From NCBI RefSeq assembly GCF_039542385.1, contig NZ_BAABIA010000001.1, forward strand, positions 434,001 to 498,000: a stretch of 64,000 bases of DNA. The letters run 5' to 3'. The translations under genes were made by a program, and so were the position numbers. The notes below the pieces were generated by a model that made no database searches, was not told the origin of the DNA, and saw only the letters and a list, made by a program, of their open reading frames with translations. The DNA comes from Prosthecobacter algae. Its GTDB lineage: Bacteria; Verrucomicrobiota; Verrucomicrobiia; Verrucomicrobiales; Verrucomicrobiaceae. Of the stretch, positions 1,514 through 15,991 are shown piece by piece (position 1 is the stretch's first letter; each line of letters opens with the position of its first letter).

Positions 1514-1543
1514 ATGAAATATTCCGATGACAGGACCACCTGA
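1514..1543 (+). other. Possible 9-codon leader ORF with a good ribosome-binding site
   Basis: AGGAG at 1501-1505 sits 8 bases before an ATG at 1514 that opens a nine-codon frame (MKYSDDRTT) ending in TGA at 1541-1543. The same site is badly spaced for either candidate start of the kinase frame (1527 or 1578). It may be a translated leader coupled to the kinase gene, or chance. There is no amino-acid run suggesting attenuation. Confidence 0.25.
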
Positions 1544-3719
1544 GGAACCTAAACTAAAGCACGTTATTTTCGTTGTTATGGATACCCCCACTCCATCTGG
1601 TTCTGGCCCAGTGGTCGCCCCGCAGTCTGCGGCGGTCACCTCCCATACGCTGTATCCAGGTGGTGCCCCTGAAGTGGACTATGACCAGACGATCAAATTC
1701 AAGACGCCGGGTTCAGGGATGACTGTTTTTAATCGTTACAAGCTGGAGCGGGTTTTGGGCCGTGGGGGCATGGGTGTGGTATGGCTGGCGGATGACCTGA
1801 AGCTAGAGCGCCCAGTGGCCCTGAAATTCCTGCCGAGTCTGATCGGACTTGATCCCGCTGCGGTGAAGGAACTGAAGACGGAAACCCGCCGTGGGCTTGA
1901 ACTTTCGCACCCGCACATCGTGCGCATCTATGACTTTGTGGATGATGAAGATGCTGCGGCCATCTCGATGGAATTTGTGGATGGCAAAACGCTGTCTGAG
2001 CTGCGGATGGGCACAGAGTTTGGCGTCTTCACGGTGGACGATATTTCGAGATGGCTGCTAGGCGTCTGCGATGCGCTGGATTACGCGCATTTCCAGCGGA
2101 AGCTGATCCATCGTGACCTGAAGCCCGCGAACATCATGCTGACCTCCAAAGAGTCGGTGGCCAAGATCGCGGACTTTGGGATTGCGCGCAGCCTGTCTGA
2201 TACAATGAGCCGCCTCTCCGTGGCCAATCTGGGCACCAGCGGCACTCTCCCCTACATGAGCCCACAGCAGGCCATGGGCGAGCGCCCGCAACCGACGGAT
2301 GACGTTTACTCCCTGGGTGCGACGATTTACGAACTGCTCACGGGCAAGCCCCCTTTCTATCGTGGAGACCTGCCCACGCAGATCAATTCGAAGATCCCGC
2401 CTTCCGTGCAGGAACGACGTACGGAACTGGAAATCCTCTCAAAGGAATCTATTCCCAAAGCCTGGGAAGAGGCCATCGCCGCCTGCCTGCACAAGGAGCC
2501 GACTCTGCGGCCTAGCTGTGCCGGTGCCCTGGCCGAAATGCTGGGCCTGCGGCCAGCTACGGTGACCATTCGCACGGGATCCTATGCGGCAACAGCGGCT
2601 GCGGCTCACTCGCGCAGCCTTTCCCAAAAGGCCAGCAGCCGCGCACCTCTCATCGCCGCCGCGGCGACGGTGATCCTGGGGGCGGGTGCTGCCGCCTATT
2701 TCTTTGTCAATTCACCGACTGAAGCCAAAAAGCCTTCGGAGACAAAACCGGCAGGCACGGTGGCTACAGCATCTCAGCCCAAAAAAGACACGGTAGAAAA
2801 AGGTGATGAAGGGGAGCCCAAAAAGGCCGCTTCCAGTCCTGAGCCTACTCTGGCCAAAGTGCCGCGTGTTACGCCAGCCACTCCGGAGCTGCCAAAGGCT
2901 GATAACCCAGCAGCCACGCCGCCCGAAGGTTCGGTGCCAGGGACTCCGCTAGGCTACAAGTCGCCAACGCTGACCACGGTCCCGTCTCCTGCAAGCCCTT
3001 TGCCAAATCCCGCTCCAGGAATGCCCACCCAGCCAGATCCCCTGGCCCTGCCTGGAGTTACGGCACCTGCGCCCTCACTTCCAGCGATGACGGCCCAGCC
3101 TGGTGCCATTCCTGGGACAACTGCAGCACAACCGCCTGTTCTCGTGGCAAGTTCCCAGATGCCTGTGGGCGGACTTTCGCTGACGCCTGATCCTGCCGGT
3201 GCTACCCAGGGTGCCTTGACCGGGGCTATGCCTCCGGCAACGACAACACCGCCACTACCGCCCGGATTTGTAGTTCCTCCGACCGGTCTAGTGCTGACCC
3301 AGCCGACGGTGCCCGAGCCTACCACAGGCTACTGGACCCTGGAGCAGGTGTTTCCTGTGTTGCCACACGCGACCTATTCACCGAAGGGCAAACGCTACTT
3401 GCTTTATCGGACCCAGTCATTGCTGAAGGAGAAAGGTCTTTATACGGCGACGGTGGACGGAGCCGAGGGCAAAAGCACTCACAATGCCATCGTGCTTTTC
3501 CAGGTACGCAGCGGCTTGCTGCCGAATGGCCTTCTGGATCTGCCGACTCTGGCGGCCTTGAACCTATCTGCTGAAGAGGATAAAGCGGACTGGAATTCTC
3601 CTTCGGGCAGTGGTTCATCTGGCAATGGGCCCCGTCGCCGCACGACGACCAAGGAGGAGCCAGGGTTCCTTCAGAAGACGGGAGACACCCTTAAGCGTCT
3701 GAATCCGTTCGGGAAGTAA
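1527..3719 (+). CDS. Transmembrane Ser/Thr kinase with peptidoglycan-binding domain
   Basis: A 730-residue PknB/Hanks-type kinase. The kinase domain spans about residues 68-340: glycine loop GRGGMGVVW, lysine in VALKFL, catalytic loop HRDLKPAN, DFG in KIADFGIARS and a GTLPYMSPQQ activation segment, so all catalytic residues are present. A membrane helix at about 373-395 is followed by a Pro/Ala/Thr-rich linker of about 200 residues and a peptidoglycan-binding type 1 domain (about 618-682). The domain order suggests a cytoplasmic kinase sensing cell-wall material in the periplasm. It converges on the secretion-like operon ending at 3798. The start is uncertain: 1527 or an in-frame ATG at 1578. 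Confidence 0.9.
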   Translation: MTGPPEEPKLKHVIFVVMDTPTPSGSGPVVAPQSAAVTSHTLYPGGAPEVDYDQTIKFKTPGSGMTVFNRYKLERVLGRGGMGVVWLADDLKLERPVALKFLPSLIGLDPAAVKELKTETRRGLELSHPHIVRIYDFVDDEDAAAISMEFVDGKTLSELRMGTEFGVFTVDDISRWLLGVCDALDYAHFQRKLIHRDLKPANIMLTSKESVAKIADFGIARSLSDTMSRLSVANLGTSGTLPYMSPQQAMGERPQPTDDVYSLGATIYELLTGKPPFYRGDLPTQINSKIPPSVQERRTELEILSKESIPKAWEEAIAACLHKEPTLRPSCAGALAEMLGLRPATVTIRTGSYAATAAAAHSRSLSQKASSRAPLIAAAATVILGAGAAAYFFVNSPTEAKKPSETKPAGTVATASQPKKDTVEKGDEGEPKKAASSPEPTLAKVPRVTPATPELPKADNPAATPPEGSVPGTPLGYKSPTLTTVPSPASPLPNPAPGMPTQPDPLALPGVTAPAPSLPAMTAQPGAIPGTTAAQPPVLVASSQMPVGGLSLTPDPAGATQGALTGAMPPATTTPPLPPGFVVPPTGLVLTQPTVPEPTTGYWTLEQVFPVLPHATYSPKGKRYLLYRTQSLLKEKGLYTATVDGAEGKSTHNAIVLFQVRSGLLPNGLLDLPTLAALNLSAEEDKADWNSPSGSGSSGNGPRRRTTTKEEPGFLQKTGDTLKRLNPFGK

Positions 3720-3797: not shown

Positions 3798-4121
3798 TCA
3801 ACCCACTTTGGGGCCTTGCTGCGGCAGGGCGGGAGCGTTGGCTTTTTGCCATTTGCCCTCTGAGTCCTTCGTCTTACCAAGGGCGGCTCCGACGCTCTCT
3901 TTTTGCTCTTGGGCAGCTTCTTCTAGCTGCTCGTTTTTGAGTTCGCGGTCGCGGGCATCGATGTCGTTGTCGCGGTCTAGGTCCTCGCTCTCACGGTCTG
4001 CCGCATCAATGCGGCCATCGCGGTCCAGATCATGGGTGGGATCATCCGCCAAGTCCACATCGCCATCCCCGTCGAGGTCACGAAGGGAATTGTTCTTGGG
4101 GCGGGATGGCAGGGGAGGCAT
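3798..4121 (-). CDS. Small protein with three Asp-rich calcium-loop-like repeats
   Basis: A 107-residue hydrophilic protein, last gene of the secretion-like operon. Residues about 15-60 hold three repeats: DLDGDGDVDLADD, DLDRDGRIDAADR and DLDRDNDIDARDR. Asp at alternating positions followed by I/V-D-x-x-D is the pattern of dockerin/EF-hand-like or thrombospondin type 3 calcium loops. The rest is charged and probably helical, then Pro/Gln-rich. There is no signal peptide, so if it acts outside the cell it would need another route, such as the adjacent machine. Calcium binding is inferred from the pattern only; it could be an effector, a structural subunit or a regulator. Confidence 0.65.
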   Translation of the reverse strand: MPPLPSRPKNNSLRDLDGDGDVDLADDPTHDLDRDGRIDAADRESEDLDRDNDIDARDRELKNEQLEEAAQEQKESVGAALGKTKDSEGKWQKANAPALPQQGPKVG

Positions 4122-4519: not shown

Positions 4520-4921
4520 TTAGCGGGAGGCGTGCCCAGCGGGGTGGCTGGTCATTTCATAGGGCTGGGCGCGCAAAGGATGAACGGAACTGCGATAGGT
4601 TTTCTTTTCGTGGCCTGGATGAGTGACGAGGAGGTAATAACGAGTCCAATGCAGCCCGGCATCGCGGCTGCCGATGCCTTCGGCCCAGCGGCGTGCTTCG
4701 GCACCTGTCATTTCACGCGGAAGAAAGGCGATGTGGAGGTTGGAATTGCGCCAGCCACGGTCGTCATGATCCACCCAGAATTCGATGCGGCTGCCTACGG
4801 GAATGACATCGGTATCCGCAAGGAAGGATGGCGGTGTGGCGCAGGCCCCGAGGAGGAGCAGGGTGAACAAGCCAAGCAGAAGGCGAAGTGGATGGGAGGT
4901 GCTGGATGAGGAAGGCTGCAT
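4520..4921 (-). CDS. Operon lipoprotein, hypothetical
   Basis: A 133-residue predicted lipoprotein: a Ser-rich start, a hydrophobic stretch (LLLGLFTLLLLG) and the lipobox LGAC with the cysteine near residue 27. The mature part is short and polar, with several Trp, Arg and His residues and the phrase SRIEFWVDHDDRGW; no known domain is recognised. It is one of three lipoproteins in the operon and would sit in the outer membrane or periplasm. It might be a late-acting accessory of the VirB7/9/10-like core, but nothing in the sequence proves it. Confidence 0.65.
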   Translation of the reverse strand: MQPSSSSTSHPLRLLLGLFTLLLLGACATPPSFLADTDVIPVGSRIEFWVDHDDRGWRNSNLHIAFLPREMTGAEARRWAEGIGSRDAGLHWTRYYLLVTHPGHEKKTYRSSVHPLRAQPYEMTSHPAGHASR

Positions 4922-4946: not shown

Positions 4947-5384
4947 TCAGGTCTCGTGTGTGACAGGCGGGGGGATAATGACAGGGGGCCTGTCCGGGAG
5001 CATGGGGCTGCCAGGGCTCTCGGGCGGGTCTTCCCCATCTCGGCCGGGACGTGGGATGAGATGAGTGACAGGCGCCATGGCGGCAGGTGAGGGCGAGGCT
5101 GGGGGTTCCTGGTATTGGCGGCCAAACCATTGGCCAAAACGGTCGTCCCAATAAGCTTTGCTGGCCCGTCGCTTGAGTTCCATCTCCTCTTTGCCAATCT
5201 GGAGGTAGGGCTCCCCCCAGCGACGCACGGCTGCGGTCAGAAGGACGAGCACGAGGATAAGGCCGGCTGCCTTGTGCCTTTCGGTCGCGATGGCGCTAGC
5301 GAAAAGCAGAAAGCCGACGCCATAGAGATCAATCTGGGGCTTCCACCGGCGGTAGAATTCAAGAATGGATGACCAGATGCCCAT
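4947..5384 (-). CDS. Small membrane protein with Pro-rich tail
   Basis: A 145-residue protein taken from the ATG at 5384; a longer frame to 5486 overlaps the upstream ATPase gene and reads as unlikely sequence. The N-terminal third has two hydrophobic segments (about residues 17-33 and 37-53), followed by a charged stretch (KEEMELKRRASKAYWDDRFG) and a Pro-rich C-terminus. The start overlaps the end of the ATPase gene by 26 bases, implying coupled translation. No family is recognised. The coupling makes a membrane anchor or partner for the AAA+ ATPase a reasonable guess. Confidence 0.6.
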   Translation of the reverse strand: MGIWSSILEFYRRWKPQIDLYGVGFLLFASAIATERHKAAGLILVLVLLTAAVRRWGEPYLQIGKEEMELKRRASKAYWDDRFGQWFGRQYQEPPASPSPAAMAPVTHLIPRPGRDGEDPPESPGSPMLPDRPPVIIPPPVTHET

Positions 5385-6255
5385 TTTCGGCGACGAGGAT
5401 TCCTGATGTGGGTTTGCCTGCCATGAGGGCCTCGCGCACGGCGTGGCGGCACTGGCTTTCGGCGGTGGTCCGCATCCGGCGCACACCCAGGCGGGGTTCC
5501 ACGCCCTGTGACACCAGAAGGTCGATCACCCCTTGTCCGGCGGTCAGTTCATAGCCTTTGTTACGCAGGTTTTTCAGCTCCTTATTGAGCATGATGCTGG
5601 CGATTTGTTTTTGGGCGGCATAGCCCAGCTTTTGGAAGACGCAGCGGACATTGAAACGGGCCAGGACTTCGGGGCGGAGTTCTGCCGCGGCGAGATCTTC
5701 AATGAACCTTTCGATGGTGGCCATGGGGCTGTTCTTCAGCTCCATGAGGGCATCGGCTCCGATGTTGGAGGTGGCGACGATGTAGAAGTTGCAGAGGTTC
5801 AGCGTCTCGCCATTGGCAACGGTGATACGGCCGGCATCGAGCACCTGCAGGAAGATGTCGAGCACGCGCGGATGGGCCTTTTCAATTTCGTCAAAGAGGA
5901 TGATGCCACGGCCCTCGGCCCGGTCATAAAAGCGGCCCATGTTGCCTCGGCTTGTTTCGCCCTGGCCTAACAATAAGCCCAGGGATTCCTGGTTCTGGTA
6001 CTCGGACATGTCCAGGCGGATGCAATGCTTGCCAACGTCCTTGTAAAGATACTCGCAGAGCAAGAGGGTGATTTCCGTCTTGCCCACGCCCGTGGGCCCC
6101 AGAAAAAGGAAGGTGCCTTTGGGCCGGCTGGGATCGCTGAGGCCCAGCTCCCCATTTTGAACGATGGGGACGACTCGCGGAATGACATGATCCTGCCCGA
6201 TGATGCGCTCGTGAAGAAAGGGCGGCAGGCCGCGAATGTGCTCTAGGTCAACCAT
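5359..6255 (-). CDS. Single-domain ClpB-D2-like AAA+ ATPase
   Basis: A 298-residue AAA+ protein corresponding to the second ATPase module plus small domain of ClpA/ClpB/ClpV. Visible motifs are the entry IIGQDHVI, Walker A GPTGVGKT (53-60), LDMSEY (81-86), Walker B IILFDE (118-123) followed by IEKAHP, sensor 1 ATSN (161-164), arginine finger R200 in LRPEVLARF, and a sensor-2-like EPRLGVRR near the end. It lacks the Clp N-domain, the first ring and the M-domain. The pore-loop-1 GYVGYEEGG of ClpB is missing and replaced by GQGETSRGNMG (97-107). It occupies the place of VirB11 after the VirB10-like gene, so it may power assembly or substrate handling of the machine, by a mechanism different from VirB11. 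Confidence 0.85.
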   Translation of the reverse strand: MVDLEHIRGLPPFLHERIIGQDHVIPRVVPIVQNGELGLSDPSRPKGTFLFLGPTGVGKTEITLLLCEYLYKDVGKHCIRLDMSEYQNQESLGLLLGQGETSRGNMGRFYDRAEGRGIILFDEIEKAHPRVLDIFLQVLDAGRITVANGETLNLCNFYIVATSNIGADALMELKNSPMATIERFIEDLAAAELRPEVLARFNVRCVFQKLGYAAQKQIASIMLNKELKNLRNKGYELTAGQGVIDLLVSQGVEPRLGVRRMRTTAESQCRHAVREALMAGKPTSGILVAENGHLVIHS

Positions 6256-6285: not shown

Positions 6286-6981
6286 TCACTTTTTCTTTCC
6301 GCCGCTGAAGCCCTGAGAGGAGGTGCGGATGCGGATGCGCTCCGCCTCTTCGAGTTCCGTGATGCGCTCTTTGGCTTTTTCCAGTTGGGAGCTGGCTTGG
6401 TCGCGTTCTTGGATGGTTTTGGCGAGGTAGAGTTGGATTTCCTGGGCCTCTTCTTCAGCTTCCTTGAACTCAAGCCGCTTCTTTTCCAGGTCTTTCTGGA
6501 GGTTGGTGAGCTTGGTCATGGTCAGTTGCAGCGACTGTGTCTTGGCCACGAGGCTTTGGCGCTCCTGATCAAGGAGGCTGCTTTTGGGAACCTCACTGCG
6601 GGAGGGCTCGACGACGCCGAGCACGACACCGCGCGACTCCATTGGCGTAGCGGGCAGCCGGGTGTCCCAGCGGGCATCCTGTTCCACTCGGTAAACGGTG
6701 TGCGCTTCATGCATTTCACGGCGGTCCTTGCTGGGAAGCCTGCCGACATGATAGGCATGTACTTCTTCGTTCAGCCGCACGCGGGAGCTGTCGTGCGGAT
6801 CCAGGGCCCGGCCTTTGGGCCAGCCGCCGACGACGGTTTTGGAGTAGGTGGGGATGTAGGCCAGCTCCTGCTGGTCCGGCGGCAGGGCAAACGGATCATC
6901 CGAGAGGGGGACTTCCTTGGTGGCACAGGAGGCGAGCAGGGCACCGGTGGCGGCGAGGGCAAATCGAGTGAAGGGTGTCAT
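6286..6981 (-). CDS. Coiled-coil lipoprotein of the secretion-like operon
   Basis: A 231-residue predicted lipoprotein with signal sequence and lipobox LASC (cysteine near residue 19). The first 130 mature residues have no recognisable fold. From about residue 137 to 215 there is a strong coiled coil (many Glu, Lys, Gln and Leu in heptads; KAKERITELEEAERIRIR), and the tail is basic (SGGKKK). Its start overlaps the VirB10-like stop by 4 bases (ATGA), implying translational coupling and a shared complex. A periplasm-spanning stalk is one possibility. No family is recognised. Confidence 0.65.
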   Translation of the reverse strand: MTPFTRFALAATGALLASCATKEVPLSDDPFALPPDQQELAYIPTYSKTVVGGWPKGRALDPHDSSRVRLNEEVHAYHVGRLPSKDRREMHEAHTVYRVEQDARWDTRLPATPMESRGVVLGVVEPSRSEVPKSSLLDQERQSLVAKTQSLQLTMTKLTNLQKDLEKKRLEFKEAEEEAQEIQLYLAKTIQERDQASSQLEKAKERITELEEAERIRIRTSSQGFSGGKKK

Positions 6982-8183
6982 GGCGTGGTGCTGGGAGGAG
7001 TGGTGGTGTCGTCGGCATCAGAGTCCTCTGACACCAGGCTGCTGACGCGGGCGGCGCGTTCAGCCGTGCGTTTTTGTTCTTCGGCTTTGCGGGTGGCTTC
7101 GGCGACTTTGGTGGCCTGCTCGGAGGCGGCAGCCGTCTCGGTCTGGGCGCGGTTGTAGGCTTCCTCAGCCAGTTGCCAACTGGAGGTGGCCTTGTTGCCC
7201 TGCTTGAGTCCGGCGATGCTGGCCATCTCGGGTTCGAAGACGTCCTGAGTGTAGATGTAAAACTGGGTGCCGGCACCGACTCGGACGAAGTCCAGATCCT
7301 GCTCCAGTTTTTTGGTGAGGAGGCCTGAGTAGGCGGAGGCGGCCTGGGAGCCACCTCCTAGGGCGGCATTGCGACTGTTGTTTTGTGGGACCAGGCCGTA
7401 GACGGACTGGAACTGGTCCTGCTTGTTGTTCATGATGCCTTCGAGGGCTTCGGCCACGAGGATTTTAAGCTCGGCATATTGGTCGTTTTTGATGATCTGG
7501 CCACGGATGCCGGCAGAGCCGTCGGTGATGGCGTAGGTGCCGTCGGAAAGACGTTCGTGGTCCAGCGCGACTGCGCTGATGTTGTATTCCCGGCCATCGG
7601 CCCAGACAAAGGTAAAGCTGCCTGAGACTTCGATGCGGTCACGGGATCTGCCTTTGCCCGCCTTAGCCTGCACTTGGGTGCCTGCGGGGACGATGAGGCG
7701 CTTATTCCAGTAGATGTCTTCTGTCACCAGCGCGAGCACGGGAGTGTCCAGAGAAGAGGAATCCACGGTAATGACGAGAGCGGCTTTGATGAGCAGGCCA
7801 CGTGGGGCGAAAAGCTTGGGCTCCTTGGCGACGTAAGGCTCGGGCGCAGTGTTGGAGATGTGTACGAGCTTGGGGAAAGGGGGAGCCTTTTGGGGTTTCT
7901 TTTGGCTGCTGGTTGTGGGGATAAAGGTGGGGGCTGGTGGCTTTTTGGGCGCGACGACGAGTTTGTCCACCTGCTGGCCGCTGCCGACCGTGGCGGTGCG
8001 TTTTTCACCGAGTGCGACGGTCTTTTCCTCCAGGGCGACCTGTGCCTGGGGGCCAGCGGAGGCTGGTGCGGCATTGACTGGTAGCGGCTGCTTTTTGGTG
8101 AGATAAAAGGCCCCGCCGGCGATACCGACGACGACGACCAGAAGGCCCATCTGCACGCCGGTTTTTTGGAGATACTTGGTCAT
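6978..8183 (-). CDS. VirB10/TrbI-like secretion channel protein
   Basis: A 401-residue bitopic protein. A short cytoplasmic start and one membrane helix (about 13-30) are followed by a Pro/Lys-rich periplasmic linker and a beta-rich domain beginning near residue 128. That domain contains LIVPAGTQVQAKAG, a VRVGAGTQFYIYTQD strand near residue 310 and other features of VirB10/TrbI C-terminal domains, which span the periplasm and reach the outer-membrane pore in type IV secretion systems. A charged, probably helical extension (about 340-401, with KAEEQKRTAERAA) follows the usual end of the domain. It sits after the VirB9-like gene, as in virB operons. Confidence 0.75.
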   Translation of the reverse strand: MTKYLQKTGVQMGLLVVVVGIAGGAFYLTKKQPLPVNAAPASAGPQAQVALEEKTVALGEKRTATVGSGQQVDKLVVAPKKPPAPTFIPTTSSQKKPQKAPPFPKLVHISNTAPEPYVAKEPKLFAPRGLLIKAALVITVDSSSLDTPVLALVTEDIYWNKRLIVPAGTQVQAKAGKGRSRDRIEVSGSFTFVWADGREYNISAVALDHERLSDGTYAITDGSAGIRGQIIKNDQYAELKILVAEALEGIMNNKQDQFQSVYGLVPQNNSRNAALGGGSQAASAYSGLLTKKLEQDLDFVRVGAGTQFYIYTQDVFEPEMASIAGLKQGNKATSSWQLAEEAYNRAQTETAAASEQATKVAEATRKAEEQKRTAERAARVSSLVSEDSDADDTTTPPSTTP

Positions 8184-8198
8184 GGCAGGAATGGGAGG

Positions 8199-9131
8199 CT
8201 ATTTGCTGTTGTCCGCCGTGGCATCGCCGAAAAGGGCAGGGGAGATCTGGCTGCGGCCGGCTTCAGGCAGCTCGATGCGGAAGTCCTGATTGATGGAGAG
8301 GCCCTCACGCCCGCCTCCTGGGCCGCCCTGGAGTAGGACATCCATGAGAACCTTTTGGCCGGGAGGGGCGACGCCGCTGCAATCCACCATCTGGGCATTG
8401 TAGCTGCGTTCCCCCACGCGGACTTTCACGCCGCTGGGGTCGAACTCGTAGGTTTCCGTTCCGGTGTTGACGAGGTGGCAGCGGAAGGCGGTGATGTCTT
8501 TGGACGGATTCCGTTGGATCTCATAGATGGTCGCGGTGACGCCTTTGTAGGTGGAGGTCATGTCCAGTCCATTGCGCTCCAGCCAGCCCTGGAAAAGACC
8601 GGGATTGAGTGACTGGAGTGCCTTGCGGCTCTTGATCTTGCTGAGCATGCCGACGAGTTCTTCCGAGCTGAAATCGATGCGGTTTTTGACCACCTGTTCA
8701 GGGGTGGTGGGGGCGGCAGCATCCTTTTCCTGCGGGGGGGAGACGATGACGGCGAGGTTGGCCTCATCGGAAGGGACGAAGCGCAGCAGATGGATGTGGC
8801 GGGAGGTGCGAACGGTCGCGTGGCAGGGCTCGCCAGGTTTTACTAAACGGACGACAAGGGTGTCTCCGATGACGTTTTCATAGTGGACGATGGCGACTTT
8901 GGCCTGGGTCATTTGTGCGGCCGCATTGGGGTCCGTCACCAGTCCGAAACCTGTCAGTAGCGTGATCTTTTCCGGGAAGGTGATGGTGGTGGCAACGGTG
9001 GCATTGATAGAGATGTCATGGACCAGTTTTTTGGAGTCCAGCATGACGAGCTCACGCCCCTGCTGCACCTGTGCCTGTGTGGTGAAGGCGGAGAGGAGAG
9101 TGAGGGAAAGGAAGCAAAGGAAGGGTCTCAT
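8199..9131 (-). CDS. VirB9/TraK-like periplasmic core protein
   Basis: A 310-residue protein with a cleavable signal peptide (about 1-20, ending TTQAQ). The N-terminal mature region has the pattern LVHDISINATVATTITFP, like the first beta domain of VirB9/TrbG/TraK core proteins. A linker of about 60 residues follows, then a second beta-rich domain (about 195-295) with YEFDPSGVKVRVGERSY. VirB9 homologues form the periplasmic ring with VirB7 and VirB10. The start overlaps the upstream VirB8-like gene by 4 bases. The homology is remote, so position in the operon carries much of the call. Confidence 0.6.
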   Translation of the reverse strand: MRPFLCFLSLTLLSAFTTQAQVQQGRELVMLDSKKLVHDISINATVATTITFPEKITLLTGFGLVTDPNAAAQMTQAKVAIVHYENVIGDTLVVRLVKPGEPCHATVRTSRHIHLLRFVPSDEANLAVIVSPPQEKDAAAPTTPEQVVKNRIDFSSEELVGMLSKIKSRKALQSLNPGLFQGWLERNGLDMTSTYKGVTATIYEIQRNPSKDITAFRCHLVNTGTETYEFDPSGVKVRVGERSYNAQMVDCSGVAPPGQKVLMDVLLQGGPGGGREGLSINQDFRIELPEAGRSQISPALFGDATADNSK

Positions 9132-9760
9132 GAGTCGCTGATTTTCTCCAATTCGTACTTCACCATCTGATCAATGACGGAGGGGAAGGCTTTATTGCGG
9201 CGGATATCCGGGTTCAGGCGCCAGAAGAGCTGCAGGCGGAAGCGATAGGTCTCGTTCTGTTCCTTGTTGTTGAATCGGCTGCGACGATAGACAAAGCCAG
9301 TCGCCTCCGTGATGCATACGGTGTCAGCCGTGCCCAGGAGGGCGTTGGTTTCGATGCTGAAGGTCTGGTGCACATCTTGGTTCCTGAAGTAGAGGCTTTC
9401 GGTTTCCAGCTTTTTGCGTATGAGGCTGTAGCTCTTTTTGGTGCACAAAAGGGGCAGCCTTTGGGCGTGGGTGATGCCCTCAGGTCCCCGGTCGAAAATG
9501 GCCTCCACCGCCATTTCGGAGAGGTTCAGGTGCATGGGCTTCATCTTGTTGTAATTCACACCAGGGGCGATGTAGTAGCCGCCGCCGGTGTCCATGACGA
9601 CGAAGGGGGGGCGGGCCTTCAGCTCCTCGGACATGAGGACGAGGTACCAAGCACAGGTGGAGGCGACGATGCAGGCGACGACGAACCAGAACACCGCCGT
9701 TTGGTCACGCGCAATGAGCGTGTCTATGGCACTTTTTTTCTTGGGTAGGGCAGTGGCCAT
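9128..9760 (-). CDS. VirB8-like inner-membrane protein, second copy
   Basis: A 210-residue bitopic protein: basic N-terminus (MATALPKKKSA), one membrane helix (about 22-42) and a mixed alpha/beta periplasmic domain. The layout and size match VirB8/TraE/TrbF subunits, which bridge inner and outer parts of type IV secretion systems. It shares with its upstream neighbour the sequence around the helix (LIARDQTAVFWFVVAC here, FIAKDKLAIFWFLVSC there), the motif NRGP or DRGPEG near residue 100, and a C-terminal W-R-NP pattern (FWRLNPDIRRNKAF), so the two are tandem paralogues. One base separates them. Confidence 0.65.
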   Translation of the reverse strand: MATALPKKKSAIDTLIARDQTAVFWFVVACIVASTCAWYLVLMSEELKARPPFVVMDTGGGYYIAPGVNYNKMKPMHLNLSEMAVEAIFDRGPEGITHAQRLPLLCTKKSYSLIRKKLETESLYFRNQDVHQTFSIETNALLGTADTVCITEATGFVYRRSRFNNKEQNETYRFRLQLFWRLNPDIRRNKAFPSVIDQMVKYELEKISDS

Positions 9761-9761
9761 G

Positions 9762-10388
9762 TCAGGGTTTCTTTTCAGAACTGGAGAACTCTTCCAGGGT
9801 GTAGTTGATGTCTGAGCAGACGAACATGAAGCGTTTGTTGGCCCTCAGGCTGGGGTTGCGCTGCCATTGCATGGTGGCACTGACCAGGAAGGACTGGACG
9901 ACGGTCTCCTTCAGCGTGGGATCGAAGCTGACGCGGATGAGCTGGCCTTCGGTGCTGGTGATGGCGCTGCCGTCGTCAGGATTGTGGACGATGTCCACAC
10001 GGCCAAGTTCGACCATCTGGTGAATTTTGCGTTTGTCGAAGTCGAAGCTGTTGTCGCGGATGTCGAGGCGGGCTTGATCTAGCCCGTTGCCGATGAAAAG
10101 CTGTTCGAGACGGCCTGTGTTCACGGGGCCCTGAGGGCCACGGTTGAGCAAGGTTTCCATCAGCAGCCGGGTATGGAAGTCTGCGGCTTCGTTGAGGTCC
10201 TGAGGCTTCATGTCCCGGGCCATGAAAACATCGTACTGCTCAATGGGTACAAAGAGCATGCGCCCACGGCCAAGGAGGGCCTGCCCGTGGAGATACCAGC
10301 CCGTGCCGATGATGCAGCCGCAGGAAACAAGAAACCAAAAAATGGCCAGCTTGTCCTTGGCTATGAACATGTCAGTGACGCCTTTCAT
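9762..10388 (-). CDS. VirB8-like inner-membrane protein, first copy
   Basis: A 208-residue bitopic protein with a membrane helix at about 15-33 and a periplasmic domain of about 170 residues. The C-terminal region contains MQWQRNPSLRANKRFMF, matching the corresponding part of the downstream paralogue. Known VirB8-like proteins dimerise through the periplasmic domain and contact VirB9 and VirB10. Two adjacent copies suggest an obligate heteromer or two rings of different radius. The start could also be the internal Met 18 bases downstream. Confidence 0.65.
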   Translation of the reverse strand: MKGVTDMFIAKDKLAIFWFLVSCGCIIGTGWYLHGQALLGRGRMLFVPIEQYDVFMARDMKPQDLNEAADFHTRLLMETLLNRGPQGPVNTGRLEQLFIGNGLDQARLDIRDNSFDFDKRKIHQMVELGRVDIVHNPDDGSAITSTEGQLIRVSFDPTLKETVVQSFLVSATMQWQRNPSLRANKRFMFVCSDINYTLEEFSSSEKKP

Positions 10389-10406: not shown

Positions 10407-11417
10407 TTAACTGCCTGCTTTTGATGCGGTGGAGGCTGCCCCGCCCATGGCACCTGCCCCTCCGGCCATCATGCCCACGCCCACAGCGGCCCCCGCTCCG
10501 GTAGCGGTGAGGGCGGCCCCGCCGGCGGCCATCGCGGCCCCAGAGGCTGCCTGTACCCCCGCACTGGCCATGCTGGAAGAGCCGGAGATCAAGCCCATGC
10601 CGATCTGTGCGCCAGTGGTGACGGCTTTGCTCACCACTTTGGGGGCGACGAAAAGGGTGACGAGCATCCAGAGAATGCCCAAGATGATGGGCAGGGTGCT
10701 GGTGAACATTGTGAGCAAGGTGGCGATCTGTCCGACGCCTGCTACTGGACCGAGGATGGAATCAAACAAGTCCGGGCCAGATTCCATGACGGCAATGCCG
10801 AAGAGCATGCCTAGCCCCCAGCCCAGTGGCCAGAAGCAGATGCCGATCATACCAATGTGGTATTTCACGGCGGTGTCGCGTGTCTGCTCAAAAACGAGCA
10901 TACCGAGAAAGAGGGGGCCTGCGGCGCTGCCCAGGTAAAGGGCGATGATCTGGATCTGGAATCCAATCCAGAAAAAGACATACATGATCATGGCCACCAG
11001 GGCCATTGCCCAGGCGATGACGACCTTGATGTAATACTCCACCCAGGTGAGGGGATTGAAGATGCCAAGGACGATCTCCGGGGCGCTGCCAGTATCAAAA
11101 GGGGCGGAGGCAAAGCTGTCACCCACATTGGTCAGCATGGAGATGGGATCCACGCCCAGTTCCACAAGAAGGTCATTGCCCAAGGTGGCCTGGGTGGAAA
11201 GCATCCAAGGGCCGTAGAACGGCATGATGGTGACCAGGAGACCCGAGACGATGATATGCCTAACGATGCCTGAGAGATCTCCGCCGATGATTCCCTTGTA
11301 GCTTTGGATCAGCAGTCCCGCGAAGACCAGCACAAACATCAGCAACTGCAGGACCTCGCTGCAACGTGCACAGACATCCGCCAAGTTGTCATAAAAAAAC
11401 GACATGTCGAAGTCCAT
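10407..11417 (-). CDS. VirB6/TrbL-like polytopic membrane protein
   Basis: A 336-residue protein with about six to seven hydrophobic segments (for example LMFVLVFAGLLI, IIVSGLLVTIMPF, AWAMALVAMIMYVFFWIGF, LPIILGILWMLVTLFV). It ends in an Ala/Gly-rich, low-complexity tail (about 280-336: AAMAAGGAALTATGAGAA). This is the typical build of VirB6/TrbL subunits of the inner-membrane channel, including the small-residue C-terminus of TrbL. It lies between the VirB5-like and VirB8-like genes, as expected for a virB operon. Confidence 0.75.
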   Translation of the reverse strand: MDFDMSFFYDNLADVCARCSEVLQLLMFVLVFAGLLIQSYKGIIGGDLSGIVRHIIVSGLLVTIMPFYGPWMLSTQATLGNDLLVELGVDPISMLTNVGDSFASAPFDTGSAPEIVLGIFNPLTWVEYYIKVVIAWAMALVAMIMYVFFWIGFQIQIIALYLGSAAGPLFLGMLVFEQTRDTAVKYHIGMIGICFWPLGWGLGMLFGIAVMESGPDLFDSILGPVAGVGQIATLLTMFTSTLPIILGILWMLVTLFVAPKVVSKAVTTGAQIGMGLISGSSSMASAGVQAASGAAMAAGGAALTATGAGAAVGVGMMAGGAGAMGGAASTASKAGS

Positions 11418-11482
11418 GGTGCGTCTGGGTAAGCGGTGACTGTTGTGGTAGGGTGGAAAAAGGCGGGCGGTATCCTTTTACA

Positions 11483-12379
11483 TCAGTTGGCGTCTCCGCC
11501 GGATGCTTCAGGATTTTCAGCCCCTGCGCCTCCGCCCGCATCGCGGCGGCCCCAGGTGAGATTCGGGATGAGAGGTCTGGCAGTGCCTCCGGGGGCTACA
11601 CCGCCAAAGGGGATGGGCGTGTAGGTGCCTACAGGTGTGGGGGGCGCGTCGGGATCTCCCGTCTGGTTCATGTGCTGGGCTTCTTCTTGTTTGCCCTTGG
11701 CGATGATTTGGGCCTGGGTGGTCAGCTCTTTGTGAGTCATGTCCGCATCAGCCTGGGCCACCAGGATGGTCTGGTTGCACTCTTCAATCTGGCCTCTCAG
11801 CACGGTGAGCATGGCATTGAGCTTGTGGATGGAGGCCAGATCCGTGGCTTCCTCGATTTCCTGAACGACCTGGGCCACTTCGTCGTTGAGCGTCTTCTTT
11901 CGGGCCAAGGCCTTTTCCCGCACTTCTTTGAATTCTTTGAACTGGGCCATGACGGCGGATTCCAGGCGGTATTTTGCCGGATCGCGGTCCACCTCGGCTC
12001 CATCCTTGCGGGTGACTGTGGCACCGATGGGTTCCATGAGCCCGAAAGCGTCATCAGCGAAGACCTCGGCTCCGGTCAGGGCGCCCAGCATCGCACGCTG
12101 CTCATCTTTAGTTTTGAGCGTGGTGGCGGAGGAGATGACATCATTTTTGATGATCTGGACAGACCCCAGATTGATGGTGGACGGCTCACCCATGCGATCC
12201 AGGCTGGTCTGCAGCTTTTCATTCTGAAGCTGGGCTTCGTTGAGGATCTGGGTGAGTTTCGCTGAAAGCTCTGACTGACCCATTTCCAGCGTGGGTGCGC
12301 TGGAGACGACGACGGCACCCTGGGCGAAAGCGCCCGAGGCGACCAGGAAGGAAGCAAGGATGAGGGCAGATGTTTTCAT
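11483..12379 (-). CDS. VirB5/TrbJ-like exported coiled-coil protein
   Basis: A 298-residue protein with a clear signal peptide (about 1-20, ending GAFAQG). The mature part is mostly helical, with two long coiled-coil-prone stretches (about 35-65 and 145-235: FKEFKEVREKALARKKTLND, and the QIEECNQTILVAQAD region). The Pro/Gly-rich tail is probably disordered. VirB5/TrbJ proteins are exported, helical, minor pilus components of similar size, and the gene sits in the virB5 position between VirB4-like and VirB6-like genes. Sequence alone does not prove homology. Confidence 0.55.
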   Translation of the reverse strand: MKTSALILASFLVASGAFAQGAVVVSSAPTLEMGQSELSAKLTQILNEAQLQNEKLQTSLDRMGEPSTINLGSVQIIKNDVISSATTLKTKDEQRAMLGALTGAEVFADDAFGLMEPIGATVTRKDGAEVDRDPAKYRLESAVMAQFKEFKEVREKALARKKTLNDEVAQVVQEIEEATDLASIHKLNAMLTVLRGQIEECNQTILVAQADADMTHKELTTQAQIIAKGKQEEAQHMNQTGDPDAPPTPVGTYTPIPFGGVAPGGTARPLIPNLTWGRRDAGGGAGAENPEASGGDAN

Positions 12380-12409
12380 GATGTGCGCGAGTGAGGGATG
12401 TGGCCGGTG

Positions 12410-12919
12410 TTATTCGACGACTTCGATGACCACCTTGCGGGGTTCGACGAGCACGCCGTCAGTCGTCACGTGCTCAGGGACAGGAACTTCATAATAGCGA
12501 CGCTGGATGGAGGAATCCTCGCTGGGCCGTTCGGCATCGCGCTTCACCCAATAAAGTTCCTTGATGGCATCGCTACGGCCTTTGTTGTATCCGTCGAGAT
12601 ACTTTTGACGGACTTCGTTTTTCGCAAAGCTGTCGCTGATAGCCCCGGCTGCATAGCCTGCGGCGGCACCGGTGATGAGTCCGGAATTGTCTTCGAGAAA
12701 GCTGCCATCACTGCCACCACCGGAGCTGCCACTGCCGCTGCCGCCAGAGCTGCCCGATGAGGAATCGTCGTCGCCATTGAGGAGGTTGTCGCCGATGAGG
12801 GCCCCGATGAGTCCGCCCGAGGCGGCGCCGAGCAGGCCTTTGTTCATGGTGCCGTCACTGCTGGTGCAGGAGGCCAGCGCGATGCTGAGACCGCTGAGGA
12901 GGATGAAGTGTCGTTTCAT
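12410..12919 (-). CDS. Glycine-zipper lipoprotein, possible VirB7 counterpart
   Basis: A 169-residue lipoprotein with lipobox LASC (cysteine near 18). Two glycine-zipper segments (GLLGAASGGLIGALIGDNLL and SGLITGAAAGYAAGAISDSF) flank a Ser/Gly-rich linker, and a charged C-terminal region with several Val-rich strands follows (YYEVPVPEHV). Glycine zippers often insert into or oligomerise at membranes. The start overlaps the VirB4-like stop by 4 bases. VirB7 is a small outer-membrane lipoprotein of the core complex; this protein could fill that role, but it is larger than VirB7 and sits earlier in the operon. Confidence 0.6.
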   Translation of the reverse strand: MKRHFILLSGLSIALASCTSSDGTMNKGLLGAASGGLIGALIGDNLLNGDDDSSSGSSGGSGSGSSGGGSDGSFLEDNSGLITGAAAGYAAGAISDSFAKNEVRQKYLDGYNKGRSDAIKELYWVKRDAERPSEDSSIQRRYYEVPVPEHVTTDGVLVEPRKVVIEVVE

Positions 12920-15615
12920 GCTTTGGACTTGGCTTGGCTGAGGATCATTTTGTAGGCGTCACCGCCGAATTCTTTGAGCTCTTCGTTCTGGCGCTCAAAG
13001 GCCTCCCCGGAAGTGGCGGAGGCGAGGATCATTTCCTTGGAGGCCTGATGGCGGCCGATGGCGATGCGGGGGCGGCCGGTGGCCTCGTGATAGTAAACAA
13101 AGGACCCGTAGGGGTCGGTCTTCATTTCCGATGGGTCGGGGAAGCTGGTGACCTGCTTTTTCGTGATGGATGGGATGCGGAAGCCCTCGCTCATGCTGTC
13201 CACATCGCGCTGGTCCGGCTGCTTTAGCATGAACATGATGCGGGAGTTCCCCACGACTGAGGAGCGCACAGGGTGGTCCTTGATGCGCTGGAACTGCTGG
13301 ATGATGGAGAAGACCCAGCAGGAATACTTGCGCATACGCTCGTAGTATTCGCGTGTGATACGGTCACCATCCGGCATGGCGAGGAAGGCGGAGAGCTCCT
13401 CGAGAATCACGCGTTTGCGGGTAGAGCGCGGGCGGCTCATGATCTCCTTCCTCAGGTCATTGGTAATGAGGAATGCGGCGACGGTGCGCAGCTCTTTCGC
13501 GGATTCAGGGATGTAGGACAGCTCAAAGTGGACCACCTTGCCGCTCAAATCCACGTTGTTGACGCCGTCAAGAATGGCACCGTAGCGGCCTGTTCGGCTC
13601 CAGGGTTCTAACAACATGCGTAACAGGCCGAGATCCTCATGGGCACGGCGCTGGCGGCTTTCCAGATTCAGCAATTCCACGAACTGGCTGTGGGTGGGCA
13701 TGTCCTCAGCCTTCATGAGGGTGTAGGCGAGGCTCATCAGGTCCCACTGGTTGCCGGGGTTGTTGAGGTAGTCCTCGACGATTCCCGGATCAATGGCCAG
13801 TCGGTTCAGCTCATGGGCCTCCGCGTTGCCTTCTAGCATCTCCGCGCTGAAGTCCAGCCAGGCATCGGCCAGGACGGTGCCCTGGGGCATTTTGCGCCGG
13901 CGCCATTCCTCGGCGACGTTGACCCGGCGTGCGGCCTCAAAGCGGCCTTCGGGACTGCGGCTGGCCCAGGTTTCAAACTGGTCCACATAGATGCGTTCGA
14001 TCTGCTTAGAGAGCAGCGCCTGGCGGATACGGTCCTTGTCAATGTCGGGCGGTGGGCCCGCCATCAGGTGGGCGATGGCGGTGGCTCCGCCAAGTTGGTC
14101 GGAGGTCAGCGGCAGGCCGCGGGTGTCGAAGTAGTTGAAGGTGAGGTTGCCATTGGGCTGCACGATGATCGGCTTGCAGCCATAGAGGCGGGTGAAGAGG
14201 TTGTAAGATAGGCCTTCCTCCACAATTGCGGTGTAGTCATAGTAAGGGGCGGTCTGGGTGAGGAGGTCGATGGTGAAGACCGACTTGCCCGCGCCAGAGG
14301 CCCCGAACATGATGCCGTGCTCCGGTCGCATGGATCCTTTGTTGCCCACGAAGGTGGTGGTGCCGACGAGAGCCCCGCGCGGGCCGTCATAGATGGCTTC
14401 GGCCTCGGCTAGATCTCCTGTCGGCGTGCTGGAGACGGGCAGTAGATCGGCCAGGTTGACGTCCTCGACGTAAAGCTTGAAATCGTTGTAGTTGGCCCAC
14501 GTCCAGCCGGGCATGCAGAGCTGCCAGTAGTTGCGTACGCTGGTCGGCAGGGTGGGCTCATAGGCCTGGGCACCGCCAAGTTTCAGGATGGAATTTTTGA
14601 TGGCGGAAAGCTTGCTGGCGCAGTTGTCCGGATTGCGGTCCCACACACGCACGATGAGGTGCATGCGGTAGGGCACGACCTCGTTGGTGGTGAGGCGGCG
14701 GATGCGGGTGCGCAGCTTCATCAGCGTGGCTTCCAGCGAGGGGGTGATCTTGCCACGCTCCAGCCTCGCTACTTTTCCTTCGGTGGCGACACGGTCTTTT
14801 TCGACATCGCCGGCCTCGATGTTGGCGACGATCTGGTAATCCAGAATGTCCATCTGCGTGAGCAGCCGCATCATGCCGATGTAGGTGAACTTGGGCAGCG
14901 TCTTCATGACGCAGATGCCCTGGTAAAAGCCGTCCATCTTGAAGGTGGATGTGCCCATGCGGTAAGGGGCCGCATCGCTGTTGAAGCACATTTCGCAGAC
15001 GGTCTTGGAGGGGTCGTAAATGTCCTCCAGCTTCAGGGCTTCGTTCTCAAAGGCGCTGGGATTGAAGTAACGGTAGAAAGCCTCAAAGTGCTCCATGTTG
15101 TCCATGGGGGCGATGCGGCCGCCGAGGCCACCCAGTTGCTGGCGGAGTGTTTCTTCCAGCTCGGACTGCTCGCGTTTGGCGGCTTGCAGCAGCTCCTCGT
15201 AATAGGCCCTGCCGCCACCCATGGACTTGCCCTGGATTTTGGAGGTGAAGTAAAATTGCAGATGCTCGCGTCGCAGTTGGTGGTCGCGGATCTTTTTGTC
15301 GTAGCGGTTGTAGCGTTCTTCACGCTGGCGGGTGGACCAGCGGTCCTGCGGCAGTTCCTCGGTGTTTTGGCGGTAGCGCTCCAGTTCCTTCCGGTAGTCG
15401 CTGTCCACACTCCAGGAGACCTGCATGCGCAGTTCTGGGCGGATCATGCGCAGGAGCACCCGTAGGTTGTCCTCCAGGGACATGAGCCAGGAGGCATCCG
15501 TGTTTTCCGTGTCGGGCATCTCCACGTTGTACCCTTTGCCGATGGCACCTCCACGGGCGAGGCCGCGATAGATGATGAGGTCCTCGTCGAGGTAAGAATT
15601 CACGAATTTCGCCAT
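12916..15615 (-). CDS. VirB4/TraC-like secretion ATPase
   Basis: An 899-residue protein taken from the ATG at 15615 (MAKFVNSYL), four bases after the upstream stop; the open frame to 15738 overlaps that gene and reads as nonsense. The N-terminal half fits the VirB4/TrbE/CagE N-domain. The C-terminal half is a RecA-like ATPase with Walker A GASGAGKS (438-445) and the typical following segment (TAIVEEGLSYN). The Walker B region reads RVILEELSAF (EE at 739-740), where VirB4 proteins usually have DE. VirB4 ATPases drive pilus biogenesis and substrate transfer in all type IV secretion systems. This is the most securely recognised subunit of the operon. Confidence 0.85.
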   Translation of the reverse strand: MAKFVNSYLDEDLIIYRGLARGGAIGKGYNVEMPDTENTDASWLMSLEDNLRVLLRMIRPELRMQVSWSVDSDYRKELERYRQNTEELPQDRWSTRQREERYNRYDKKIRDHQLRREHLQFYFTSKIQGKSMGGGRAYYEELLQAAKREQSELEETLRQQLGGLGGRIAPMDNMEHFEAFYRYFNPSAFENEALKLEDIYDPSKTVCEMCFNSDAAPYRMGTSTFKMDGFYQGICVMKTLPKFTYIGMMRLLTQMDILDYQIVANIEAGDVEKDRVATEGKVARLERGKITPSLEATLMKLRTRIRRLTTNEVVPYRMHLIVRVWDRNPDNCASKLSAIKNSILKLGGAQAYEPTLPTSVRNYWQLCMPGWTWANYNDFKLYVEDVNLADLLPVSSTPTGDLAEAEAIYDGPRGALVGTTTFVGNKGSMRPEHGIMFGASGAGKSVFTIDLLTQTAPYYDYTAIVEEGLSYNLFTRLYGCKPIIVQPNGNLTFNYFDTRGLPLTSDQLGGATAIAHLMAGPPPDIDKDRIRQALLSKQIERIYVDQFETWASRSPEGRFEAARRVNVAEEWRRRKMPQGTVLADAWLDFSAEMLEGNAEAHELNRLAIDPGIVEDYLNNPGNQWDLMSLAYTLMKAEDMPTHSQFVELLNLESRQRRAHEDLGLLRMLLEPWSRTGRYGAILDGVNNVDLSGKVVHFELSYIPESAKELRTVAAFLITNDLRKEIMSRPRSTRKRVILEELSAFLAMPDGDRITREYYERMRKYSCWVFSIIQQFQRIKDHPVRSSVVGNSRIMFMLKQPDQRDVDSMSEGFRIPSITKKQVTSFPDPSEMKTDPYGSFVYYHEATGRPRIAIGRHQASKEMILASATSGEAFERQNEELKEFGGDAYKMILSQAKSKA

Positions 15616-15619
15616 CGCT

Positions 15620-15991
15620 TTAAATGTCTTTCTCCTTGGTCGGATCATCCACCCAAGGCAGGGAGATCGGCTCGACCTGTTTGGGGGAGAAATAGGGGTT
15701 GTTGCTGGCCTTGATGATGAGCCACTCTCCCAGTTCAACGTCGTAGGAGGGGGGCTTGCCCTGCTTCAGGCCGAAGCAGTAGGCTGAGACGACAATGAGG
15801 GGAATGGAGGCAAAGATGATGGCCAGCAGCATATTCGGATTGGCCTCACCCGCGAATTTGCGAAAGATGAGCATGGACAGCCCGAGGGCGAGCATGAAGA
15901 AAAGGGCGTTGAGACCCTCGAAGCCGGCGATGCCCTGCTGGGTTTCGCGGCCTTCATTGGTTTCGTGAAGCCGTACGGACTGCTGTTCCAT
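15620..15991 (-). CDS. VirB3-like membrane protein
   Basis: A small protein between the VirB2-like and VirB4-like genes. From the ATG at 15991 it has 123 residues; a GTG at 16039 would add 16. Two hydrophobic segments lie close together (NALFFMLALGLSMLIF and MLLAIIFASIPLIVVSAYCF), followed by a cytoplasmic C-terminal part of about 50 residues ending DDPTKEKDI. VirB3 has the same two-helix build and genetic position and works with VirB4. The call rests on layout more than sequence. Confidence 0.6.
   Translation of the reverse strand: MEQQSVRLHETNEGRETQQGIAGFEGLNALFFMLALGLSMLIFRKFAGEANPNMLLAIIFASIPLIVVSAYCFGLKQGKPPSYDVELGEWLIIKASNNPYFSPKQVEPISLPWVDDPTKEKDI

Follow-up and report, generated by a model that had tools for sequence, protein, structure and literature searches.

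To our knowledge, the ATPases in models of type IV secretion systems (T4SSs) number two or three, each of them a VirB4, a VirD4 or a VirB11. In the window, a stretch of 64,000 nucleotides of Prosthecobacter algae contig NZ_BAABIA010000001.1 (positions 434,001 to 498,000), a run of VirB-like genes is followed, behind VirB10 and a lipoprotein gene, by a gene for a ClpB-like AAA+ ATPase, which the initial annotation described as standing in the place of VirB11. Is this Clp-like ring part of the secretion machine, and what would it do there? The answer we consider somewhat probable, judging from the sequence comparisons below, is that the AAA+ protein would serve as the dedicated ring ATPase of a VirB11-less Verrucomicrobiota T4SS and remodel the VirB4/VirD4 base without threading substrates.

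The AAA+ protein is a single Clp-type module encoded in a VirB-like gene run

The AAA+ open reading frame, which extends from an ATG at 6255 to a TGA at 5359 and encodes 298 residues, is confirmed as a real gene; its start is 30 nt beyond the stop of the lipoprotein gene before it, and its end overlaps the next gene, whose ATG lies at 5384 (Table 1). The product is one ClpB NBD2-type AAA+ module, consisting of a large AAA_2 domain (Pfam E 2.4e-31, 109 bits against a cut-off of 27) and a C-terminal ClpB_D2-small domain (7.7e-7). Among NCBIfam models, ClpB scores highest (200 bits), followed by ClpK (154), ClpA (153) and ClpV (142), with no score close to a whole-protein cut-off. ClpB also leads the solved structures that resemble the AlphaFold2 model (mean pLDDT 95), and ClpB/Hsp104 NBD2 (PDB 4fd2; TM-score 0.90, 33% identity) shares with it the whole fold and the Walker, sensor and arginine-finger residues.

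Specifically, in a numbering that counts from V2 (add 1 for numbering from the ATG), the protein has Walker A GPTGVGKT (K58), Walker B DE (121-122), sensor 1 N163, arginine finger R199 and sensor 2 R258, so that its domains and active site are those of a Clp/HSP100 D2-type AAA+ module. The earlier description of a ClpB-type single ring subunit with intact Walker A, Walker B, sensor 1 and arginine finger is thus borne out by residues, Pfam domains and fold alike. Walker A and B, both sensors and the arginine finger do not vary in an alignment of 61 relatives, from which we expect the protein to hydrolyse ATP as a homo-oligomer; with an arginine finger and a C-terminal small domain of its own, it would form a self-sufficient ring.

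The AAA+ gene is the twelfth of a minus-strand run in the order VirB2, VirB3, VirB4, lipoprotein, VirB5, VirB6, VirB8, VirB8, VirB9, VirB10, lipoprotein and AAA+, in which short gaps and several 4-nt overlaps suggest that the run is probably a single transcript. VirB2, VirB3 and VirB9 owe their names to other family members with matches, not to matches of the window proteins themselves, and VirB5 and VirB8 are named mainly by position. The best NCBIfam match of the window VirB4 is F-type TraC (TraC-F-type 4e-22), and the glycine-rich lipoprotein behind VirB4 is a possible VirB7 counterpart. Genes downstream of the AAA+ gene (4947-3798) recur in close relatives only.

Table 1. Genes of the VirB-AAA+ run in the window, in the order of the minus strand.
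Feature	Position	Strand	Remarks
VirB2-like pilin, 106 aa	16078..16398	(-)	TrbC/VirB2 in 7/14 family members, best 2e-5; position
VirB3-like membrane protein	15620..15991	(-)	ATG 15991, ORF opens 16039; PrgI in 2/12 members, best 2e-5
VirB4-like ATPase, ~899 aa	12916..15615	(-)	ATG 15615, ORF opens 15738; P-loop_TraG 2e-12
Glycine-rich lipoprotein	12410..12919	(-)	59/62 loci; 4-nt overlap with VirB4 stop
VirB5-like exported protein	11483..12379	(-)	position and conservation; no meaningful Pfam match
VirB6-like polytopic membrane protein	10407..11417	(-)	TrbL 2.4e-5, 24.7 bits, just under cut-off 25.9
VirB8-like protein, copy 1	9762..10388	(-)	mainly position; weak TraE 0.005 in 2/15 members
VirB8-like protein, copy 2	9128..9760	(-)	mainly position; VirB8 assignment weak
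VirB9-like protein	8199..9131	(-)	CagX in 6/16 family members, best 5e-7
VirB10-like protein	6978..8183	(-)	TrbI (VirB10/TrbI) 3.6e-11
Lipoprotein lipB behind VirB10	6286..6981	(-)	41/62 loci; 4-nt overlap with VirB10 stop
Single-ring ClpB-NBD2-like AAA+ ATPase	5359..6255	(-)	298 aa; intact active-site residues; no Clp-type pore loop 1
Small hydrophobic protein, probably with a membrane segment	4947..5384	(-)	genus-specific; 26-nt overlap with AAA+ gene
Lipoprotein behind AAA+ gene	4520..4921	(-)	genus-specific

The VirD4-like coupling protein of this system is encoded just outside the window, 10 kb away (~C1:428397-429932; TrwB_AAD_bind 3e-13). With VirB4, VirB10, VirB6, VirB9, VirB2 and this coupling protein, the cluster has the gene content of a T4SS. 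Behind the VirD4-like gene lies a gene for a 1112-aa protein (L014 4203-7541, ~C1:430203-433541) with a weak PI3/PI4-kinase-like stretch (1.3e-4, below the cut-off; motif DYITGQIDRHSGN ... IDND), which is a candidate substrate of the system. A domain search of that locus recognised no relaxase next to the VirD4-like gene. A second, divergent cluster in the same genome, on contig C6, contains VirB2-10, a single-ring AAA+ gene adjoining VirB2, a coupling protein and a TrwC/MOBF relaxase, and is therefore most likely conjugative. The VirB4s of the two clusters are 38% identical and the AAA+ proteins, of which each cluster has its own, 48%.

Other genes of the window are recorded here for completeness. 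A small protein with repeated DLDxDGDxD calcium-binding-like motifs (3798-4121, minus strand) is encoded at the end of the gene run and was not found in the other neighbourhoods searched; a Ser/Thr kinase with a C-terminal peptidoglycan-binding domain (1527-3719, plus strand) is convergent with the run, and additional kinases are located at 17557 and 21683.

The substrate-gripping elements of ClpB are replaced in the AAA+ family

ClpB NBD2 grips its substrate through Y653/V654 and E639-K640-H641 (PMC6546751). In the window protein, the Clp pore-loop-1 motif GYVG is missing (GQGETSRGNMGRF in the window against GAPPGYVGYEEGGQL in ClpB), and the E-K-H residues beside the loop read N-Q-E. From DMSE[YF] to the Walker B DE, members of the AAA+ family typically have 41-42 residues where ClpB has 46, and their pore loop 1 is about 5 residues shorter. 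Across the family this shortened loop is not conserved, mostly reading G-x-L-G with T, L, M, N or R at x, and the conserved aromatic-hydrophobic GYVG loop of a threading translocase is not found. Because the Tyr-Val clamp and the neighbouring grip loop are both replaced, the ring probably does not thread substrates. In four members (L114, L117, L119 and L142) the shortened loop reads GYLG, with a Tyr, and threading may be possible in these.

A precedent is provided by the Torsins, single-ring Clp relatives that also lack an aromatic pore loop, an absence that has been used as an argument against threading (PMC5425593). Torsins need active-site complementation by cofactors (PMC5425593), whereas the AAA+ family has its own arginine finger. 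This precedent and the loss of the pore loop favour a ring that would act on its partners by conformational change. Another single-ring Clp relative, human CLPB/Skd3, is a disaggregase with an ankyrin domain and, like the Torsins, differs from the AAA+ family in being eukaryotic.

These changes bear on the alternative that the ring is a substrate unfoldase behind the coupling protein, which would unfold relaxase or other protein substrates or strip chaperones from them and feed VirD4 by threading. Such a role would suit the AAA+ fold, which is that of an unfoldase ring, the frequent overlap of the AAA+ gene with the end of a VirD4-like gene and the presence of relaxase genes (TrwC/MOBF and a weakly MobL-like one) on these elements. 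We nevertheless regard it as unlikely, since both gripping elements are changed and the protein has no N-terminal or middle domain for binding substrates or adaptors.

The single-ring family forms its own clade and occupies several positions in the loci

ClpB disaggregases possess an N-domain, NBD1 and an M-domain and are about 860 aa long, whereas the AAA+ protein has none of these domains; at 298 aa, with D2 only and 200 bits against a cut-off of 1232, its identity as a ClpB disaggregase was rejected. In an unrooted tree, in which some single-ring rows are long-branched, 51 single-ring AAA+ proteins are split from 19 Clp D2 domains (ClpA, ClpB, ClpK, ClpL, ClpV and others) by a branch with support of 100/100. 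The single-ring family is thus a clade of its own and by descent neither ClpV-type nor ClpB-type. The suggestion of a ClpB-type subunit, for which a phylogeny against ClpA, ClpB and ClpV had been proposed as a check, gives way at the level of descent; ClpV branches elsewhere, and the threading loop is lost.

ClpV/TssH of type VI secretion resembles the AAA+ family in being a Clp-type ring that serves a secretion machine. ClpV has two AAA+ rings. In the tree it groups by itself within the Clp proteins, which rules out a ClpV origin of the family; the ClpV proteins compared keep GYVG and serve a different machine. The window protein itself is excluded as ClpV/TssH by its score (142 bits), its other branch and its VirB-like neighbourhoods. 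Assignment to a defence system was likewise rejected, as the PADLOC matches of the AAA+ protein (at most 81 bits) look like general AAA+ similarity. Sixty plasmid homologues sampled down the ranking reach at most about 41% identity; the majority are annotated as full-length Clp proteins, and a few are short or unannotated. Separately, genomes G016 and G034 encode a tandem pair of divergent ClpB-D2-like proteins (L263 962-3168 and L264 5509-7595), one with an N-terminal hydrophobic segment and the other keeping GYVG, whose T4SS association is putative.

We compared 62 neighbourhoods, comprising the window, the C6 cluster and 60 others, in which the VirB gene order is nearly fixed. A full-length AAA+ gene is present in 41 of them, most commonly adjoining the VirB2 gene and divergent from it; it lies at the lipB/VirB10 end in the window genus and in L065, L084, L104, L109, L110 and L118. 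The divergent copy of G015 lies between VirB6 and VirB8. Of 20 loci fetched around AAA+ copies away from the first-found VirB4s, 16 have the copy adjoining a VirD4-like gene and four are further VirB clusters. Of 21 same-strand VirD4-AAA+ pairs, 11 have a start codon that overlaps the end of the VirD4 frame by exactly 4 nt. The proposed location in place of VirB11 therefore holds positionally for the window genus and a few other clusters, but not for most copies, which are divergent from VirB2 or behind VirD4.

Additional arrangements were seen in single loci. L085 contains an AAA+ remnant, its C-terminal part only, beside VirB2 (12297-12653), while two complete copies are present next to VirD4-like genes in the same genome, G218, which looks like a trace of AAA+ relocation. 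Genome G291 (L128-L132, L234) has seven single-ring AAA+ genes, which suggests several related mobile elements; the six that were fetched each adjoin a VirD4-like gene, two of these being cut by a contig end. In L102, the gene for a 1231-aa NTPase-like protein (GDPGAGKS; 11464-15156) separates the VirB run from the AAA+/VirD4 pair.

The position beside VirB2 would be in keeping with a recycling or pilin-handling factor in a ClpV-like role, which would take apart the pilus or the whole machine, or extract VirB2 pilin from the membrane. We consider this alternative quite improbable: many AAA+ copies lie beside VirD4 instead, the family is unrelated to ClpV within the Clp tree, and the ClpV proteins compared have retained the loop that the family has lost.

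The AAA+ gene is inherited together with VirB4 and VirD4

Relatives of the window VirB4 occur in 57 of 335 genomes of the class. Single-ring AAA+ genes are present in 46 of these 57 genomes and in 2 of the 278 VirB4-free ones (Fisher p 1.9e-43), where single-ring proteins were separated from full-length ClpB by score: among the matches listed, those of at least 172 bits are open frames of 218-528 aa, and full-length ClpB-like frames score about 170 bits or less. Divergent copies in G080 and G015, missed by this first search and recovered with a profile, are left out of the count. In one of the two VirB4-free genomes, G086, the copy lies beside a VirD4-like gene. Among loci longer than 15 kb from named genomes, 48 of 53 contain the AAA+ gene, the carriers including Prosthecobacter, Brevifollis, Opitutaceae, Limisphaerales and Chthoniobacteraceae; other families of Verrucomicrobiota also have it, beside VirB2 or VirD4. 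Two further loci, L185 and L193, bear the labels Planctomycetota and Caldisericales, possibly through misbinning.

In line with this distribution, evolutionary distances of the AAA+ proteins correlate with those of VirB4 (r 0.89) and VirD4 (0.86), the value for VirB4 and VirB10 being 0.83, although these correlations partly reflect shared host descent. The ring is not strictly required, because two genomes (G180 and G185) have VirB4 and VirD4 and no single-ring AAA+ protein recognisable by profile search. By linkage and co-inheritance with VirB4 and VirD4, there is a strong case that the AAA+ protein is a component of the Verrucomicrobiota T4SS. The single ClpB-D2-like ring is accordingly a stable partner of the VirB-like genes, as first suspected, and its orthologues, rather than lying mostly outside such operons, are found beside VirB genes or VirD4-like genes.

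That the protein is a passenger, a stress chaperone or regulator carried on the same mobile elements without belonging to the machine, in the way that many enterobacterial plasmids carry clpK, is very improbable even though Clp genes are common plasmid cargo and some AAA+ copies lie far from VirB genes, because the copies fetched there adjoin VirD4, the gene tracks VirB4 as closely as VirB10 does, and it is nearly confined to VirB4-bearing genomes.

VirB11 is not found in the genomes searched

The VirB11 family (VirB11/TrbB/DotB) consists of RecA-type traffic ATPases and is not homologous to the AAA+ protein, from which it differs in fold and family; the two are alike as cytosolic T4SS ATPases encoded, in some clusters, behind VirB10. 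The AAA+ protein has no match to the T2SSE/VirB11 domain models (TIGR02788, PF00437). No gene exceeds the TIGR02788 cut-off in the 41 genomes searched, and the best score of the VirB11 model in the window's own genome is 59 bits against a cut-off of 250. A hidden VirB11 was sought with PF00437 in the own genome and TIGR02788 in the 41 genomes and rejected, as all hits fall below the cut-off and their frame lengths fit PilB, PilT or TadA. Among the places listed, no VirB11-model hit adjoins a VirB cluster, and a phmmer search of the neighbourhoods with the genome's own GspE/PilT-type proteins, several of whose query frames were on the wrong strand, found none. A VirB11 gene elsewhere that co-occurs with the operon, which would have spoken against the initial annotation, is thus not seen above the cut-off in these 41 genomes.

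F-type T4SSs also lack VirB11 (PMC12624023). The window system resembles them in a VirB4 nearest TraC, a coupling protein nearest TraD and TraK_C in two VirB9 members, and the C6 sister system in its MOBF relaxase (TraI in the F type), whereas the gene order of the window is VirB-like. Since F-type systems do without VirB11, and a few relatives such as G180 and G185 have neither VirB11 nor a recognisable AAA+ protein of this kind, the lack of VirB11 is not unique, and functional replacement of VirB11 by the AAA+ protein is no more than a possibility. In a T4SS review the term 'Clp' never occurs, and no Clp-type ring is given for the F or any other T4SS (PMC12624023). Full texts of open-licence papers likewise yielded no earlier account of a T4SS with a Clp-type ATPase, consistent with the initial statement that no such system is known.

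A proposed role at the VirB4/VirD4 base

Because the AAA+ gene is close to VirD4 and inherited with VirB4, the site of action would be the cytosolic base of the machine. We propose that the remodelling ring would dock on the cytosolic side of the VirD4-like coupling protein, of VirB4 or of both, as either partner fits, and that its ATP turnover would alter their conformation. The resulting change could be assembly, gating or a switch between pilus making and transfer, work akin to that of VirB11 elsewhere and done by a non-homologous ring. The original idea of a hybrid energising module stays plausible on these comparisons, with its Clp analogy corrected for the missing threading loop and for a ClpV that is not the nearest relative. 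As a wider and more tentative extension, which we hold to be possible but doubtful, a Clp-derived, non-threading ring would be the third T4SS ATPase throughout the phylum, replacing VirB11 function on the VirB4/VirD4 base.

As an example of annotation in this phylum, the MOBF plasmid CP007054.1 of Opitutaceae bacterium TAV5 (L240) carries VirB4-, VirB5- and VirB6-like genes of the same kind, all annotated hypothetical. The AAA+ gene is a marker for conjugative or secretion elements where annotation can be hypothetical only. The family is also a second case, after the Torsins, of a Clp-family ring without its substrate grip. If the proposed role is true, a non-homologous ring inherited with VirB4 would mean that the third motor slot of a T4SS can be filled by another fold, and it would open the question of what VirB11 itself adds.
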